This document shows positions 7,521 through 46,225 of a stretch of DNA of 64,000 bases, piece by piece. The notes beneath the pieces were generated by a model, which was not told where the DNA came from, did no database searches, and saw only the letters and a program-made list of their open reading frames with translations. The stretch is from contig NZ_JAFN01000001.1 in the NCBI RefSeq assembly GCF_000526155.1, forward strand, positions 3,102,264-3,166,263, given 5' to 3'. The stretch's first letter is position 1. Every line of letters begins with the position of its first letter. The position numbers and the translations under genes were made by a program. Origin of the DNA: Deferrisoma camini S3R1 (GTDB lineage: Bacteria; Desulfobacterota; Deferrisomatia; Deferrisomatales; Deferrisomataceae).

Positions 7521-8153
7521 TCACCGCGCCACCCGGAACGTCGGGCCGCTCACGGCCGGGATGAACCGGCGGCCCACGGCCGTGAAAGGGGGGTACCACG
7601 CCAGGTCCGGCAATGGGACCCCCAGGTAGCGGGCTGCCTCGGTCAGGATCCTCCGGCCCAAACCCGTGCGGCGGTACCGGGGGGCCACCCAAAGGAAGTC
7701 CACGGACCAGGCCGTCCCCTCCCCCGGCTCCCGCACCCGCCACCCCTTGCGGGGGGCCACGCCGTCGGGCTCCTCGCCCTCCACCCACTCGGCCACGGCC
7801 TCCACCCGCCGGTGGGCCAGCAGGAACACCCCGGCCAGCCGCGCCCCCCGGTACCCCAGGAACCCGTGGGTCCTGAGCTCCGGGGGCTCCCGCAGCGAGT
7901 AGGGGGACCCGGTGTAGCCCATCTCCCGGGCCCCGATCCGGGCGATCTCCTCCACCCTGCGGCGCTGCGCCCGGGGCGCGGCCGGCACCACCACCGTGAC
8001 CCGCAGCCCGTCGCCCTGCCACAGCACCCGCTCCCCCGCCAGGGGGCGGCGGGGGAGCCCCCGGGTGACCCGGTCGTGGAGCCTGCGATGCCGGGCCGCA
8101 TCGGCCGGGTCGTCGGGGTCGTAGCGGGTGTGGCACACGCGGCACCGGGCCAC
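7521..8153 (-). CDS. Zinc-finger GNAT acetyltransferase resembling Eco1/ESCO
   Basis: 210 residues. The N-terminus is a C2H2-type finger (CRVCHTRYDPDDPADAARH, then LHDR), with the C-x2-C, tyrosine, acidic loop and H-x3-H order of the zf-C2H2_3 domain of eukaryotic cohesin acetyltransferases. After a variable middle (GYRGARLAGVFLLAHR, AVAEW) comes an acetyl-CoA loop (DFLWVAPRYRRTGLGRRIL, residues 150-168) and a C-terminus (LAWYPPFTAVGRRFIPAVSG) that parallels the ESCO 'AFS-PT-x-G-x-x-F' ending. Acetyltransferase activity is likely; the substrate is unknown. It sits 4 bases downstream of alanine dehydrogenase on the same strand. Confidence 0.7.
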   Translation of the reverse strand: MARCRVCHTRYDPDDPADAARHRRLHDRVTRGLPRRPLAGERVLWQGDGLRVTVVVPAAPRAQRRRVEEIARIGAREMGYTGSPYSLREPPELRTHGFLGYRGARLAGVFLLAHRRVEAVAEWVEGEEPDGVAPRKGWRVREPGEGTAWSVDFLWVAPRYRRTGLGRRILTEAARYLGVPLPDLAWYPPFTAVGRRFIPAVSGPTFRVAR

Positions 8154-8157
8154 GGCC

Positions 8158-9270
8158 CTACCCCAGCAACCGCTCCAGGGGGGTCCACTCCATGCCGAAC
8201 GCCTCGGCCACGGGCCGGCAGGTGACGTGGCCGTCCCAGGTGTTCACGCCCTTGGCAAGGCTCGGGTCGGCCCGCAGGGCCTCCTCCACGCCGGACGCGA
8301 GCTTGCGGCAGTAGGGCAGGGTCACGTTGGTCAGGGCGTAGGTGCTGGTCATCGGCACCGAGCCCGGGATATTGGGCACGCAGTAGTGGATCACCCCCTC
8401 CTCCTCGTACACCGGGTCGGAGTGGGAGGTGGGCCGGCTCGTCTCGCTCACCCCCCCCTGGTCGATGGCCACGTCCACGAACACGCTGCCCGGCTTCATG
8501 CCCCGCAGGATCTCCCGGTCCACGAGGCGGGGGGCCTTGGCCCCGGGCACCAGAACCGCTCCCACCAGCATGTCGCAGCTGGCCGCGGCCTCGCGCACGT
8601 TCCGGCGGTTGGACATGAGGGTCACCACCTTGCCGTCGAACACGTCGTCGATGTAGGAGAGCCGGGCGTGGTTGATGTCGATGATGACCACCTCGGCCCC
8701 CAGCCCGTAGGCCACCTTGGCCGCGTTGATGCCCACCGCGCCGCCCCCGATGATCACGATGCGGCCGTGCTTGGTGCCCGGCACCCCGCCCAGCAGGATG
8801 CCCATGCCGCCCCTCTCCCGCTGGAGGAACGCCGCGCCCAGCTGCACCGCCATCTTCCCGGCCACCTGGCTCATGGGAGCCAGGAGCGGCAGGCTCCCGT
8901 CGCCGAGCTGAATCGTCTCGTAGGCCACGGCCCGGATCCGGCGCTCCAGCAGCACCCGCCCCAGCTCCGGCAGGGGCGCCAGGTGCAGGAACGTGAACAG
9001 GATCTGGCCCTCCTGGAGCAGGTCGTACTCCTCGGGCAGGGGCTCCTTGACCTTCATCACCAGGTCCGCGGCCTCCCACACCTCCCGGGCCGAGGAGGCG
9101 ATGCGGGCGCCGGCCGAGACGAACTCGTCGTCGGAGATGCCGCTTCCCAGCCCCGCACCGGTCTCGATCAGCACGGTGTGGCCGTCGCGGGTGAGCTCCT
9201 CCACGCCCGACGGCACGATGCCCACCCGGTACTCGTTGTTCTTTCGCTCCTTGGGTATCCCGACGATCAT
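8158..9270 (-). CDS. ald: Alanine dehydrogenase
   Basis: 370 residues, the usual length. MIVGIPKERKNNEYRVGIVPSGV at the start, the substrate-binding KVKEPLPEEYDLL, the catalytic region FTFLHLAP, and the NAD-binding GGGAVGINAAKVAYGLGAEVVIID (residues 170-195) all match the AlaDH/PNT family. It interconverts L-alanine with pyruvate and ammonia using NAD+. The ATG follows an AAGGAGGCG site. The ESCO-like gene is directly downstream and probably co-transcribed. Confidence 0.97.
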   Translation of the reverse strand: MIVGIPKERKNNEYRVGIVPSGVEELTRDGHTVLIETGAGLGSGISDDEFVSAGARIASSAREVWEAADLVMKVKEPLPEEYDLLQEGQILFTFLHLAPLPELGRVLLERRIRAVAYETIQLGDGSLPLLAPMSQVAGKMAVQLGAAFLQRERGGMGILLGGVPGTKHGRIVIIGGGAVGINAAKVAYGLGAEVVIIDINHARLSYIDDVFDGKVVTLMSNRRNVREAAASCDMLVGAVLVPGAKAPRLVDREILRGMKPGSVFVDVAIDQGGVSETSRPTSHSDPVYEEEGVIHYCVPNIPGSVPMTSTYALTNVTLPYCRKLASGVEEALRADPSLAKGVNTWDGHVTCRPVAEAFGMEWTPLERLLG

Positions 9271-23982: not shown

Positions 23983-25314
23983 ATGGAACAGATCTGGCGA
24001 TCCGTCCTGAGCGACCTGGAGTCCTCGCTGCCCACCCAGACGTTCCAGACCTGGATCCGCCCGATCCGTCCCCTGCGTCTGGACGGAAACGAGCTCCTGG
24101 TGGAGGTTCCCAGCAAGTTCTTCGCCGACTGGCTCCAGGACCACGACTACCTCAGCCTGATCGAGCGCTCCGCCACGGGCCACGCCGGCCGCCCGGTGCA
24201 GGTGCGCTGCGTCCCCTCGAAGCAGGAAAAGGCCTATGTGCGCCCGTCGAAGAAGGAGTCGACGGCCCCGCCGGGGTGGCAGGAACGGGCGCGGCGCATC
24301 GGCCTGAACCCCAAGTACACGTTCGAGGCCTTCGTGGTGGGCAGCTCCAACCAGTTCGCCCACGCGGCCAGCCTGGCCGTGGCCGAACGGTCCACGCGGA
24401 CCTACAACCCCCTGTTCATCTACGGCGGCGTGGGGCTCGGAAAGACCCATCTTCTCAACGCCATCGGAAACTTTCGGCTCGCCAACGATCCCAACGCCAA
24501 GGTCTGCTACGTCCACAGCGAGAGCTTCGTCAACGAGATGATCCAGGCCCTCGCCCACAACCGGATGCCCGAGTTCCGGGAGAAGTACCGGAAGATGGAC
24601 ATCCTGCTGATGGACGACATCCAGTTCATCGCGGGCAAGGAACGCACCCAGGAGGAGTTCTTCCACACCTTCAACACGCTCTACGAGAACCACCGCAACA
24701 TCGTGGTGACGAGCGACAAGTTCCCCAAGGAGATCCCCGGCCTGGCCGACCGGCTGCGCTCCCGGTTCGAGTGGGGCCTGATCGCCGACATCCAGCCCCC
24801 GGACGTGGAGACCAAGGTGGCCATTCTCCAGAAGAAGGCCGAGCTGGAGTCGATCTTCCTGCCCCTGGACGTGGCCCATTTCCTGGCGTCCCACTGCCCC
24901 TCGAACATCCGGGAGCTCGAGGGGTCGCTGATCACCATCATGGCGTTTGCGAGCCTCACCAAGGCCGAGCTCACGGTGGATCTGGCCAAGAGCGTGCTGC
25001 GGGGCATGATCCGCGAGAACTCGCAGAAGGTCACGGTCGACCGCATCGTCAAGGCGGTGGCCCAGCACTACCACCTGACCGCGGCCGATCTCCGGGGCAA
25101 GCGCCGAACCAAGGCCGTGGCCCTGCCCCGGCAGATCGCCATGTACCTGGCCCGGGAGCTCACCGACTGCTCGTTCCCCGAGATCGGCCAGAAGATCGGG
25201 GGCCGCGACCATTCCACCGTGATGTACGCCTGCGAGAAGATCTCGAAGGCCCTGGAGGCGGATGCGGATCTGCGAGCCGAGGTGGAATCGATCCGACGGA
25301 AGATCTCTGGATGA
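23983..25314 (+). CDS. dnaA: Chromosomal replication initiator DnaA
   Basis: 443 residues: N-terminal DnaB-interaction domain (TFQTWIRPIRPL), linker rich in KK and P (70-105), AAA+ domain with Walker A GGVGLGKTHLL (about 147) and Walker B LLMDDIQFI, and the C-terminal DNA-binding domain with the signature GRDHSTVMYACEKI. Binds DnaA boxes on both sides of its own gene and opens oriC. Confidence 0.99.
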   Translation: MEQIWRSVLSDLESSLPTQTFQTWIRPIRPLRLDGNELLVEVPSKFFADWLQDHDYLSLIERSATGHAGRPVQVRCVPSKQEKAYVRPSKKESTAPPGWQERARRIGLNPKYTFEAFVVGSSNQFAHAASLAVAERSTRTYNPLFIYGGVGLGKTHLLNAIGNFRLANDPNAKVCYVHSESFVNEMIQALAHNRMPEFREKYRKMDILLMDDIQFIAGKERTQEEFFHTFNTLYENHRNIVVTSDKFPKEIPGLADRLRSRFEWGLIADIQPPDVETKVAILQKKAELESIFLPLDVAHFLASHCPSNIRELEGSLITIMAFASLTKAELTVDLAKSVLRGMIRENSQKVTVDRIVKAVAQHYHLTAADLRGKRRTKAVALPRQIAMYLARELTDCSFPEIGQKIGGRDHSTVMYACEKISKALEADADLRAEVESIRRKISG

Positions 25315-25318
25315 CCTG

Positions 25319-25505
25319 GGGATCACCCGGGGGACAACCCTGGGGATAACCTGTGGGCGAAACCGATGACCTCGGGTCCTGTGGATAAACCCGGGGTTAT
25401 CCACAAAGTCATCCACAGCGGAAACCCGCCGGACCGGCGCCTGGTTTTCACCTTATCCACAAAATCCACAGGCCCTATGACTTACGAATAAAGAAAAAAA
25501 AACCA
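25319..25505 (+). other. oriC: Probable oriC: DnaA-box cluster and A-rich tract between dnaA and dnaN
   Basis: Perfect boxes are TGTGGATAA (25380-25388), TTATCCACA (25397-25405) and TTATCCACA (25453-25461), with weaker forms (GGGGATAACC, CATCCACAG, AATCCACAG) among them. They are followed by an A-rich run (about 25480-25503), the most AT-rich stretch of the neighbourhood and a candidate unwinding element. Location dnaA-oriC-dnaN fits many bacteria. Confidence 0.8.
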
Positions 25506-25523
25506 TCACCCCTAGGAGGAGCC

Positions 25524-26645
25524 ATGATCGTCCACATCGACAAGGACGCCGCCGTTCCGGTGCTGGCCCAAGCGATCTCCGTGCTGGAGCGCAAGACCAC
25601 CCGGGAGATCCTGGAACACATCCTCCTCGAGGCCCAGGGAGACGTGCTCGAGGTTCGGTCCACGGACCTCAAGATCAGCCTCGTCCAAAGCCTGCCCTGT
25701 CAGGTCCAGGTGCCTGGGTCGCTCGCGGCCCCCGGCCGAAAGCTCTACGAGATCGTCCGGGAGCTCCCCACGGGCACGGCCACCCTCGAGCTCGAGGAGA
25801 ACGGCTGGCTCCACATCACGGCCGCGAAGACCAGCTTCCGGATCCCCACGGAGCGGCCCGACGAGTTCCCGGAGTTCCCGGTGGAGCCCGGCGAGTTCTC
25901 CCGGTTTCCCGCGCCGTCCTTCGTGACCATGCTGGAGAAGACGCTGTTCTCGGCCTCCAACGACGAGACCCGACCGACCCTGTGCGGCGTGTACCTCCAT
26001 TCCCACGAGGACCCGGACACCGGCTCCCACACCCTGCGCATGGTGTCCACCGACGGCCACCGGCTGACCATCATGGACCAGCCGACCCCGGTGGGCCTGC
26101 ACATGTTCCAAGACGGGCTGATCCTCCCGAAGAAAGGGCTCGCCAGCCTGAAGTCCCTGATCGAGGAGGCCGGGGAGGAGTTCGAGATCGCCCAGTCCGG
26201 CGGAAAGATCTTCTGCAGGATCCCCAACGCCCAGATGTGCCTGACACCGATCGACGGATCGTTCCCCCGCTACCAGGACGTCATCCCAGCCGACCCCAGG
26301 AACCGCGTCACCGTGGCCAAGGAGGCCTTCGCCGACGCCCTGCGGCGGGTCTCGCTGATGACCGACCCCGACACCCACAGCGTCATCCTCGACGCCGCCC
26401 AGGGCCGCGTGCTGCTGACCTCCATGAACACCCGCACCGGCGACAGCCGCGAGGAGATCGAGGCCACGCTCGAAGGCGAGCCGCTGCGCATCGCCTTCAA
26501 CGCGTCGTACTTCCTGGACGCCCTGCGTCACCTCAGCGGCCCGGAGGTTCGCATCGAGATCGACCAGCCCCTGGCACCCTGTCTGATCCGCTCGGACGAG
26601 GACCCCGGCTACCTCTGCGTGGTGATGCCGATCCGCATCGACTGA
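25524..26645 (+). CDS. dnaN: DNA polymerase III beta sliding clamp
   Basis: 373 residues in three clamp folds. Landmarks: ETKTTREILEHILLEA-like opening (ERKTTREILEHILLEAQGD), FVTMLEKTLFSASNDETRPTLCGVYLH at domain II, and the C-terminal CLIRSDEDPGYLCVVMPIRID, ending in the usual VMP-x-R motif. It clamps polymerase to DNA. GGAGGAG site 5 bases from the ATG. Confidence 0.99.
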   Translation: MIVHIDKDAAVPVLAQAISVLERKTTREILEHILLEAQGDVLEVRSTDLKISLVQSLPCQVQVPGSLAAPGRKLYEIVRELPTGTATLELEENGWLHITAAKTSFRIPTERPDEFPEFPVEPGEFSRFPAPSFVTMLEKTLFSASNDETRPTLCGVYLHSHEDPDTGSHTLRMVSTDGHRLTIMDQPTPVGLHMFQDGLILPKKGLASLKSLIEEAGEEFEIAQSGGKIFCRIPNAQMCLTPIDGSFPRYQDVIPADPRNRVTVAKEAFADALRRVSLMTDPDTHSVILDAAQGRVLLTSMNTRTGDSREEIEATLEGEPLRIAFNASYFLDALRHLSGPEVRIEIDQPLAPCLIRSDEDPGYLCVVMPIRID

Positions 26646-26647
26646 CG

Positions 26648-30183
<3,536 letters not shown>

Positions 30184-43793: not shown

Positions 43794-45383
43794 ATGGCCA
43801 ACCGGAGGTTCGAGATGCACCAGTACCGACACGTCCTCGTTCGCATGCGGCTTGGAGACTCCAACCGCCAGATCGCCAAAGCCGGCCTCATGGGCCGCCG
43901 CAAGGCCTCTGCCTTCCGTGAGCTCGCCGCCCACAACGGCTGGCTCGACCCCGACTCCCCCGTGCCCGACGAGGCCGCCATCGCCCAGGCCCTCGGCTCC
44001 TCCCCTGCACGGGCCACCCCGCGGGCCGGTTCCTCCCTCGAGCGCTACCGCGACGAGATCACCCGCTGGGTCGAGCTCGGCATCCAGGGCACCACCATCC
44101 ACGAGGCCCTGTGCCGAAAGCACGGCTACACCGGCCACTACTCTTCGGTACGGCGATTCCTCCAAGGCATCCGGAAGGCCAACCCCCAGGCCACCGTCAT
44201 GCTGGAGTTCGCCCCCGGCGAGGCCGCCCAGGTCGACTTCGGCAAGGGCCCCACGATCCCCCATCCCCTCACCGGCGAGCCCCAACTCACCTGGGTCTTC
44301 GTGATGACGCTTGCCTGGAGCCGCCATCAGTACGCCGAGATCGTCCCCGACCAGAAGGTCTCCACATGGATCGCCTGCCACCGCCGGGCCTTCGAGTGGT
44401 TTGGCGGCGTTCCTGCCCGGATCATCATCGACAACGCCAAGTGCGCCATTGTCCGCGCCTGCTACCACGATCCCGAGGTCCAGCGCTCCTATGCCGAGCT
44501 GGCCGAGGGCTACGGGTTCCGCATCGCCCCTTGTCCCGTCCGGGACCCCAAGAAGAAGGGCCGGGTGGAGTCCGGGGTGAAGTACATCAAGCGCTCGTTT
44601 CTGCCCCTTCGCGAGTTCCGAGACCGGGTCGACGCCAACCGCCAGCTCCACGAGTGGATCCGCTCCACCGCCGGCAACCGCCTTCACGGCACCACCCACG
44701 AGCGACCCCTCACCCGGTTCGTCGAGGTGGAGCGCCACGTGCTCAGGCCCCTGCCCGACGTGCCCCCCATCCTCGGCGTGTGGACCCGCGTGAAGCTCCA
44801 CGGCAACTGCCACGTCACCTTCGAGAAGGCCTACTACTCCGCCCCCTTTCGCCTCGTGCGCCAGCATCTGTGGCTGCGCGCCACCCCCTCGACCGTGGAG
44901 CTCTACCTCGACCACGAGCTCGTCGCCTCCCACCCCCGCCTGGCTCGCCCCGGCGAGCGCTCCACCGTCCAAGACCACCTCCCCCCGGAGGCGGTGGCCT
45001 ACCAGATGCAAGACCCCCAGTGGTGCCTCAAGAAGGCCCGAGCCCTCGGGCCCTCCACCCATGAGCTCGTCGAGCGCCTCTTCGCCCACCGCGTCCTCGA
45101 CAACCTCCGTGCCGCCCAGGGGGTGATCCGCCTGGCCCAGCGCTTCGGGCACGAGCGCCTGGAGGCCGCGTGCCGCCGGGCCCTTCGCTTCGATGATCCC
45201 CGCTACCGCACCGTGAAGACCATCCTCCAAAAGGGCCTCGATCAGGAGCCCGAACCGGCCGAGCCCTCCGCCCTCGCCGAGGCCTACACCGGCAAGGGCC
45301 GCTTCTGCCGCGATGCCGCCCAACTGCTCCTGTGGGATCCGCCCCCGGCCCCCCAGCGGCGGGGCCCCGGCGAAACCCTCTGA
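43794..45383 (+). CDS. istA: IS21 transposase IstA
   Basis: 529 residues. N-terminal HTH (VRMRLGDSNRQIAKAGLMGRRKASAF), second HTH near 85-115 (GTTIHEALCRKHGYTGHYSSVRRF), and an rve-type DDE core: APGEAAQVDFGKGP, FGGVPARIIIDNAKCAI and KKKGRVESGVKYIKRSF with the catalytic D, D, E. C-terminal Mu-type beta domain. Intact, so the element may be active. Confidence 0.95.
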   Translation: MANRRFEMHQYRHVLVRMRLGDSNRQIAKAGLMGRRKASAFRELAAHNGWLDPDSPVPDEAAIAQALGSSPARATPRAGSSLERYRDEITRWVELGIQGTTIHEALCRKHGYTGHYSSVRRFLQGIRKANPQATVMLEFAPGEAAQVDFGKGPTIPHPLTGEPQLTWVFVMTLAWSRHQYAEIVPDQKVSTWIACHRRAFEWFGGVPARIIIDNAKCAIVRACYHDPEVQRSYAELAEGYGFRIAPCPVRDPKKKGRVESGVKYIKRSFLPLREFRDRVDANRQLHEWIRSTAGNRLHGTTHERPLTRFVEVERHVLRPLPDVPPILGVWTRVKLHGNCHVTFEKAYYSAPFRLVRQHLWLRATPSTVELYLDHELVASHPRLARPGERSTVQDHLPPEAVAYQMQDPQWCLKKARALGPSTHELVERLFAHRVLDNLRAAQGVIRLAQRFGHERLEAACRRALRFDDPRYRTVKTILQKGLDQEPEPAEPSALAEAYTGKGRFCRDAAQLLLWDPPPAPQRRGPGETL

Positions 45384-45442
45384 GTTCCCGCCGCGCTGCC
45401 GAGCCTGTGCCTTCCACCCCTTCACGCAACGGAGACCAGACC

Positions 45443-46225
45443 ATGAACCCCATGCCCCAGCTCGCCCCCTTGCTCAAGCAGCTTCGCCTCTCTGGTATCC
45501 TCGACTCCCTCGAGGCCCGAAACCGTCAGGCCGTGGAGCATCAGCTCTCCTACACCGAGTTCCTCTCCCTGCTCATCCAGGACGAGATCGCCCGCCGCGA
45601 GCACAAAAAGCTCGCCCTCAGGTTCCGGCGCGCCGGCTTCCGCGGCGAAAAAACCATCGAGAACTTCGACTTCGCCTTCAACCCCGGCGTCAACAAGGCC
45701 CTCATCCTCGATGTCGCCACCTGCCGCTTCCTCCACGAAAAGGTCTGTGTCCTCATCGTCGGCCCCACCGGCACCGGCAAAAGCCATCTCGCCCAGGCCA
45801 TCGGCCACTGCGCCATCCGCCAGGGCCACGATGTGCTGTTTACCTCCGCCTCCAAGCTCCTGGGCTCGCTCCATGCCGCCCGGGCCACCGATACCTACGA
45901 ACGCCGCTTCGCCGCCCTGGCACGGGTCGATCTGCTCATCATCGACGACTTCGGCCTCAAACCCCTGCGCCCTCCCCAGGACGAGGACTTCCACGACCTC
46001 ATGAACGAACGCTACGAGCGCGCCTCCACCATCCTCACCAGCAACCTCGATTTGGGCGAGTGGGGCCAGGCCTTCCCCAACCGCCTGCTGGGGGCCGCCA
46101 CCATCGACCGGATCCGCCACGGCGCCTACCGGATCGTCCTGGAGGGCCAGAGCTACCGATCACCCCGACCCCTGCCGGACGACGCCCCCCAGGAGGTCGT
46201 TGCCTCGACGCGTCGAAAGGGGTAG
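45443..46225 (+). CDS. istB: IS21 transposition helper ATPase IstB
   Basis: 260 residues. LAPLLKQLRLSGILDSLEARN at the N-terminus, Walker A GPTGTGKSHLAQAIGHCA, Walker B LLIIDDFGLKPL and sensor TSNLDLGEW. A DnaC-like AAA+ protein that stimulates IstA. It starts 59 bases after istA. Confidence 0.95.
   Translation: MNPMPQLAPLLKQLRLSGILDSLEARNRQAVEHQLSYTEFLSLLIQDEIARREHKKLALRFRRAGFRGEKTIENFDFAFNPGVNKALILDVATCRFLHEKVCVLIVGPTGTGKSHLAQAIGHCAIRQGHDVLFTSASKLLGSLHAARATDTYERRFAALARVDLLIIDDFGLKPLRPPQDEDFHDLMNERYERASTILTSNLDLGEWGQAFPNRLLGAATIDRIRHGAYRIVLEGQSYRSPRPLPDDAPQEVVASTRRKG

Follow-up and report, generated by a model that had tools for sequence, protein, structure and literature searches.

ESCO1 and ESCO2 are the eukaryotic enzymes that lock cohesin, and to our knowledge ESCO/Eco1 has been treated as a cohesion factor specific to eukaryotes and bacteria have no cohesin. 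In these proteins, the elements of the catalytic module follow one another in the order zinc finger, strands, helix, GNAT core, and C-terminal motif, and structures of ESCO1, ESCO2, and Eco1 (PDB 5t53, 6sp0, 5n1u/5n1w/5n22, and 4mxe) were used for comparison. In a search of the literature, no bacterial ESCO was present in the titles and abstract beginnings of the matches listed, with preprints and most subscription papers lying outside the scope of the search.

The same order of elements is found in a protein encoded by Deferrisoma camini S3R1, within the 64,000-nucleotide stretch of contig NZ_JAFN01000001.1 that was analyzed here (the window). The gene, at positions 7521..8153 of the minus strand, has a GTG start and encodes 210 amino acids; its description as an ESCO-like zinc-finger GNAT acetyltransferase draws on Pfam, phmmer, profile, predicted-fold, and dN/dS analyses. 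The source genome (one 4.24-Mb contig) has a single copy, and within the order the gene is carried by 4 of the 12 genomes, three from the same genus and one from another family. The codons of this gene are under purifying selection, with a dN/dS of ∼0.14–0.19 in three genus pairs (0.027/0.142, 0.043/0.252, and 0.047/0.341).

Domain layout and sequence match to ESCO

The zinc finger of the window protein (8076..8144, minus strand, as are all of the features of this gene) has the arrangement C4-x2-C7-x14-H22-x3-H26, which is the spacing of ESCO1 and ESCO2, and its four ligands do not vary among the 15 bacterial sequences that make up an alignment described below (A8). Alignments place a strand-strand-helix segment after the finger, as in ESCO, at residues 41–80 (7914..8033, ERVL to REMGY), in which Y80 is invariant in A8. 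Farther along the chain are W138 (7740..7742), which is paired in the joint alignment with W623 of the xEco2 substrate β-hairpin, and RRTGLG at residues 161–166 (7656..7673), the acetyl-CoA pyrophosphate loop of GNAT motif A, with R161, R162, and G164 invariant in A8. The segment PPFTAVGRRF at residues 188–197 (7563..7592) is aligned with DP-TPDGKLF of ESCO. The proposal of the first-pass annotation that the finger, the RRTGLG loop, and the PPFTAVGRRF segment follow the ESCO order is borne out by the open reading frame, by the motifs, and by an alignment that runs from the finger into the C terminus.

The two ESCO-derived Pfam families that were suggested as a check both match the protein, yet both remain under their gathering scores. 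PF13878 (zf-C2H2_3) scored 21.3 bits on the finger (E = 2.3e-4, gathering score 27), and PF13880 (Acetyltransf_13) scored 13.9 bits on the C-terminal part (E = 0.051, gathering score 22.8). The sole Pfam family above threshold was Acetyltransf_1 (22.5, just over the cut-off of 20.7, E = 1.5e-4), and the protein has the [QR]xxGx[GA] loop after β4 and the predicted fold of the GNAT superfamily. NCBIfam returned nothing for this protein beyond a sub-threshold PuhB row, PHROGs gave no useful name (phrog_36762, function not assigned, at 0.052), and models of defense systems had no match to any of the five proteins scanned.

When the window protein was compared with 177,635 PDB sequences by phmmer, ESCO2 and ESCO1 were the first matches (E = 1.8e-5 each), in a single alignment that covers residues 3–171, from the finger to motif A, and XEco2 was the third (E = 0.0022). 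A profile of the four family sequences found ESCO2 at 6.5e-7 and ESCO1 at 1e-5, with the best non-ESCO row at 0.08. Profile-profile comparison of the window family with ESCO gave 94.6% (E = 7.2e-8 in one comparison) over columns 3–200, and the profiles are thin (four and three sequences). Alignment A4 takes in three of the four members. The 49%-identical homologue L006, searched alone against the PDB, found ESCO2 (0.0073) and ESCO1 (0.08), both weakly, and nothing else at E values up to 10. The residues W138, R161, R162, T191, G194, F197, and F206 are common to the window protein and ESCO in the joint alignment, and the identity to vertebrate ESCO is 21–23%. A control GNAT from the same genome had 43 phmmer matches in the PDB, none of which was ESCO, and its hhalign values were 4.9% with the window family and 0.7% with ESCO.

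An ordinary GNAT that acquired an unrelated C2H2 finger might come to resemble ESCO by convergence, given that the C2H2 spacing is simple, that GNAT cores are alike, and that Pfam finds a generic GNAT first. However, the alignment covers the stretch that links the finger to the core and reaches the C terminus, neither phmmer nor hhalign connects the control GNAT with ESCO, and ESCO is first for the predicted models of both the window protein and L006 (see below); we consider convergence to be highly improbable. Chance resemblance, or a generic GNAT, is ruled out by the phmmer, profile, and Foldseek matches to ESCO together with the behavior of the control GNAT.

Predicted fold and active site

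The window protein was modeled by template-free AlphaFold2 (pLDDT 72.7, pTM 0.72, with low confidence at residues 119–143 and 189–210), as was L006 (pLDDT 70.3). In a Foldseek search with the window-protein model, ESCO/Eco chains occupied ranks 1–12 (5t53, E = 4.9e-10), and VIA aligned this model from residue 1, finger included, with both 5t53 (Z = 16.2, 178 residues, rmsd 5.0) and 6sp0 (Z = 16.1, 186 residues, rmsd 4.3). The next folds found by VIA were those of the protein acetyltransferases ATAT1 (Z = 12.8) and HAT1 (Z = 11.5), followed by aminoglycoside enzymes at 10.6 and lower. With the L006 model, ESCO filled Foldseek ranks 1–9, after which aminoglycoside and RimI-type GNATs were interspersed with weaker ESCO rows, and VIA gave 5t53 a Z of 15.6, with the next family at 11.8. 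The comparison with the ESCO1 structure that had been recommended earlier thus placed ESCO first for both proteins by both programs, and the finger-plus-GNAT fold of ESCO is the best structural match of these two predicted models. Because the ESCO structures in the PDB may have been among those from which the predictor learned, we give more weight to the sequence evidence.

The first-pass annotation had also named an outcome that would speak against it, namely that an ordinary GNAT family with an unrelated metal site would match better. This was not the case, because ESCO is the top match by phmmer, by profile, and by both structure searches. Judged from the alignments and the predicted models, the build of the window protein is homologous to that of ESCO.

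The active site gives a different picture. In mouse Esco2, the catalytic candidates weighed in PMC7300003 are E491, S527, S566, and D567. The corresponding columns hold H114, D152, Y187, and P188 in the window protein (the last three at the positions of ESCO1 S770, S809, and D810) and R, D, L, and P in L006, such that all four of these ESCO candidates are replaced. For xEco2, PMC5349539 describes W623 as a residue of the substrate β-hairpin. When the hairpin residues R621, W623, and C625 are followed into the window protein, the tryptophan is kept as W138 and the arginine and cysteine are not. D152 (7698..7700), a candidate general base, is invariant in the four family members, and its position is presumably that of the GCN5 general base E173 by the usual GNAT spacing; in the mobile relatives described below, this column holds D, Q, S, or G. 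Because the four candidate catalytic residues are all replaced, the name Eco1/ESCO enzyme is not appropriate for the window protein. It combines the build of ESCO with an active site of another kind, and, given these replacements, the sub-threshold Pfam scores, and a host Smc that lacks a lysine pair of the Smc3 type (see below), it is not an Eco1 orthologue.

Relatives on mobile elements and the origin of ESCO

A tblastn search of plasmids with the window protein found nothing at 1e-5, and very weak leads (E = 1, 0.4, and 0.1) pointed to a GNAT of a Streptomyces linear plasmid and to a Shinella protein. The finger of the Shinella protein passes the PF13878 cut-off (35.8 versus 27), and its finger-GNAT type is present on 135 of 72,556 plasmid records; Pseudomonas accounts for 126 of these, and many are near copies. 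A profile of the plasmid proteins led to 15 loci on viral contigs, and the member from pQBR103 matched 1 of 50,697 phage records. Scans of the viral contigs with the window protein, with the four-member alignment A2, or with the Shinella protein found no relative, and tblastn of phages with the window protein, L006, or mouse ESCO2 found no match. Among the mobile relatives scanned with PF13878, L071, L079, L088, and L072 pass (30.0–35.8) and L092, L076, and L074 fail (17.7–24.1). The C-x2-C-x14-H-x3-H spacing is present in eight of the nine plasmid proteins examined. At 10 of the 15 viral loci, a scan for the finger found five with it (L079, L082 H-x4-H), three without it (L086:2028-2633, L089:3187-3672, and L091:5839-6438), and two with no open reading frame listed. 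Three mobile relatives, L086 among them, are matched by phrog_36762. In the records opened, these proteins are annotated as "C2H2-type zinc finger protein," as GNAT, or as hypothetical, and the mobile bacterial family with this finger-GNAT layout is new here.

The plasmid profile matched the window family at 97.1% (E = 7.6e-11), versus 0.2% for the control GNAT, and matched ESCO more weakly (83.2%, E = 8.7e-6); its top two PDB matches were ESCO2 and ESCO1, over the fingers only (0.0015 and 0.0051). Alignment A8 pools 15 sequences, namely seven of the eight proteobacterial plasmid proteins (L078 left out), the Streptomyces protein, the four window-family members, and 3 of the 15 viral loci. With this pooling, the PDB match to ESCO2 went from 6.5e-7 to 3.5e-10, ESCO1 was found at 3.3e-9, and the profile-profile comparison with ESCO gave 96.9% (E = 1.6e-10); a designed TIM barrel (1.1e-3) ranked ahead of XEco2 (0.014), which is probably fortuitous. 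The addition of distant relatives therefore strengthens the ESCO2 match, as true homology should.

The Streptomyces protein (Streptomyces sp. NBC_01174, WP_331730883.1; DLVWVADVYRRQGVG) has, like the window protein, a Cys/His finger-like stretch before the GNAT, and hhalign matches it to the window family over the GNAT part (95.3%, E = 2.1e-8). It differs in having a C-x-C spacing, a finger that is not recognized by Pfam, and a longer N terminus, and its search against the PDB returned no ESCO match.

Other features of the mobile proteins were also recorded. The N-terminal ∼205–220 amino acids that the plasmid forms have in common showed no Pfam match in the Shinella protein (L071:1844-2480). 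On the Agrobacterium plasmid pQ15_94_4, two overlapping open reading frames (L074:4384-4902 and L074:4815-5564) separately encode the N-terminal part and the finger-GNAT, which form a single frame in the longer plasmid form. A gene for MvaT/MvaU (H-NS-like) is within ∼4 kb of the finger-GNAT on three of the five Pseudomonas megaplasmids opened but not on the other two; the three are related (L072:5395-6576, L078:3395-4576, and L097:4395-5576). This proximity is a possible hint toward a nucleoid-protein substrate for the megaplasmid GNATs.

On chromosomes the family is sparse. Among the 395 genomes sampled from the phylum, the pooled profile found it in 4, and the narrower profile (A2) at E = 0.05 reported 14, four of them full length; the other 10 (E = 6.5e-5 to 0.05) were set aside as partial matches, the longest covering 120 of 210 positions. 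A scan of the phylum with PF13878, with hits that were weak outside the family, also gave 14 genomes, of which four are the window family. Eight of the other 10 loci were translated and had no C2H2 pattern in the frames that run through the match, three being adenylate kinase-like and two zinc-ribbon-like by eye, with the frame read for L009, L013, and L016 being other than the matched one. A search of genome contigs with peptides of the window protein found two records.

Such a sparse distribution (4 of 395 genomes) would also fit a recent transfer of a eukaryotic ESCO gene into this bacterial lineage. From a comparison with vertebrate ESCO sequences, this is very unlikely, however, because the identity is just 21–23%. 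Within a single order, two members are 49% identical, the third-position GC content of the four family genes is 0.86–0.97, the ESCO catalytic residues are absent, and relatives exist on bacterial plasmids and viral contigs. In addition, ESCO falls outside the window family in a tree that is unrooted and has long branches. This tree (18 rows) separates the window family, ESCO, and the Streptomyces protein from the mobile family (91/89), with long branches that may join falsely, and it neither shows nor excludes a descent of ESCO from bacteria.

The relatives on plasmids and viral contigs, together with the pooled ESCO2 match, lend more weight to the suggestion of the first-pass annotation that this protein may bear on how the eukaryotic family arose. 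Because such distant relatives are found on bacterial plasmids and viral contigs, the source of the eukaryotic enzyme becomes a question that is open to direct study. A bolder reading, which we hold to be less likely than not, is that the eukaryotic cohesin acetyltransferase may have arisen from a bacterial finger-GNAT family that persists on plasmids, phages, and a few chromosomes, that the catalytic base of ESCO may have moved from the canonical acid in β4 (D152 here) to the C-terminal S-D pair upon recruitment to Smc3, and that the bacterial members may acetylate other DNA-associated proteins.

Gene neighbors, substrate, and comparison with known acetyltransferases

Upstream of the ESCO-like gene, ending 4 bases before its start, is a gene on the same strand (8158..9270, minus strand) that is alanine dehydrogenase-like by eye. 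The same 4-base arrangement is found within the genus, and the two genes are perhaps co-transcribed, in this genus only. In G265, the ESCO-like gene instead follows a gene that is penicillin-binding-protein-like by eye. Across the genomes compared, no stable operon partner was found and the neighbors are not conserved; in G223, the alanine dehydrogenase gene is close to the end of its contig, and adjacency could not be read. Elsewhere in the window, dnaA-, dnaN-, and recF-like genes lie in a row at 23983-26836 (dnaA and dnaN by eye, recF-like by an SMC_N match), which places a replication-initiation region ∼16 kb from the ESCO-like gene, and two adjacent open reading frames at 43794-46225 resemble, by eye, an IstA/IstB (IS21-type) transposase pair.

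The alanine dehydrogenase-like neighbor in one genus is among the observations that would fit a protein of the same zinc-finger GNAT stock that acetylates a small molecule, such as an amino acid, a polyamine, or an antibiotic, and in which the finger is only structural. Most bacterial GNATs act on small molecules, Acetyltransf_1 alone is over its Pfam cut-off, and aminoglycoside N-acetyltransferases are among the lower structural matches. However, the neighboring gene is unlinked in G265, seven genomes of the order have it but lack the ESCO-like gene, the folds of the protein-acetylating ESCO and ATAT1 outrank those of small-molecule enzymes when the window-protein model is compared by VIA, and the tryptophan of the ESCO substrate hairpin is kept. 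We regard acetylation of a small molecule as unlikely, although it deserves more weight than the other alternatives.

An SMC/MukB-like protein had been raised as a possible substrate, and the analysis of bacterial Smc does not support it. At the place of the acetylated lysine pair (KK) of Smc3, which we take as the position to be compared, Smc has RSGESEY or one of the variants RSGDSEY, RTGESEY, and RNGESEY in all 10 genomes read, with the motif alike in three carriers and seven non-carriers of the ESCO-like gene. The motif was located by a pattern that requires G[ED]SxY, and this pattern matched in all 10 loci tried of the 11 found. A tandem-lysine pair of the Smc3 type was not found in the host Smc of these 10 genomes of the order; therefore, the way in which Eco1 acts on Smc3 does not apply here. 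An enzyme equivalent to Eco1 in function, which would acetylate bacterial Smc or an SMC-like protein such as RecN and so lock it on DNA, would fit the homology to ESCO, a source genome that has a canonical Smc and a RecN-like protein (by eye), and the ∼16-kb distance to the dnaA-dnaN-recF cluster. Besides the motif, however, only 4 of the order's 12 genomes carry the gene as opposed to 11 of 12 for Smc, and neither the ESCO catalytic residues nor R621 and C625 of xEco2 are kept, and we consider this role improbable.

The reading that we prefer, with a probability of roughly 0.6, is that the window protein is a chromosomal member of a sparse bacterial zinc-finger GNAT family. As profiles and the predicted fold show, it is homologous over nearly its full length to the catalytic module of ESCO/Eco1, and we infer common descent of the two. 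Counting against this reading are the sub-threshold scores of the ESCO Pfam families, the replaced catalytic residues, the weak match of L006, the thin profiles, the moderate confidence of the models, the other GNATs among the ESCO rows for the L006 model, and the lack of conserved neighbors. The window protein is most likely an acetyl-CoA-dependent protein N-acetyltransferase with a substrate that is not of the Smc3 type. On the basis of the GNAT fold, acetyl-CoA would bind at the RRxGxG loop. In the predicted model, the finger is packed against the GNAT core in the manner of ESCO, and by analogy it would probably help to dock or position a protein substrate. D152, at the place of ESCO1 S770, would then likely act as the general base that deprotonates the substrate amine, and the reaction would yield a protein that is N-acetylated, most likely on lysine and not at a KK site of the Smc3 type.

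A near full-length bacterial homologue, together with the mobile family, provides an outgroup for the origin of ESCO and a simple system in which to seek the ancestral substrate, and the substituted active site leads to a testable prediction on how catalysis evolved in the cohesin enzyme.

Compared with known systems, the window protein has in common with ESCO the finger C-x2-C-x14-H-x3-H, the hairpin tryptophan, and the motif A-[WF]-x-x-P-x-T-x-x-G-[RK]-x-F. It lacks the long N-terminal extension of ESCO that serves in PCNA/Pds5 recruitment, its first Cys being residue 4, and it has a canonical RRTGLG loop where ESCO1 has RRKKIA. ATAT1, the next-best fold, is aligned without the finger (model residues 31–210) and is absent among the sequence matches. 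The mobile zinc-finger GNATs, from megaplasmids such as pQBR103 and Shinella pZ25 and from viral contigs, share an RRxG GNAT and, in eight of the nine plasmid proteins examined, the finger spacing of the window family, whereas the seven aligned plasmid forms (381–396 amino acids) are distinguished from the window protein by ∼205–220 extra N-terminal residues, a shorter loop before β4, and a P[LVY]S ending.
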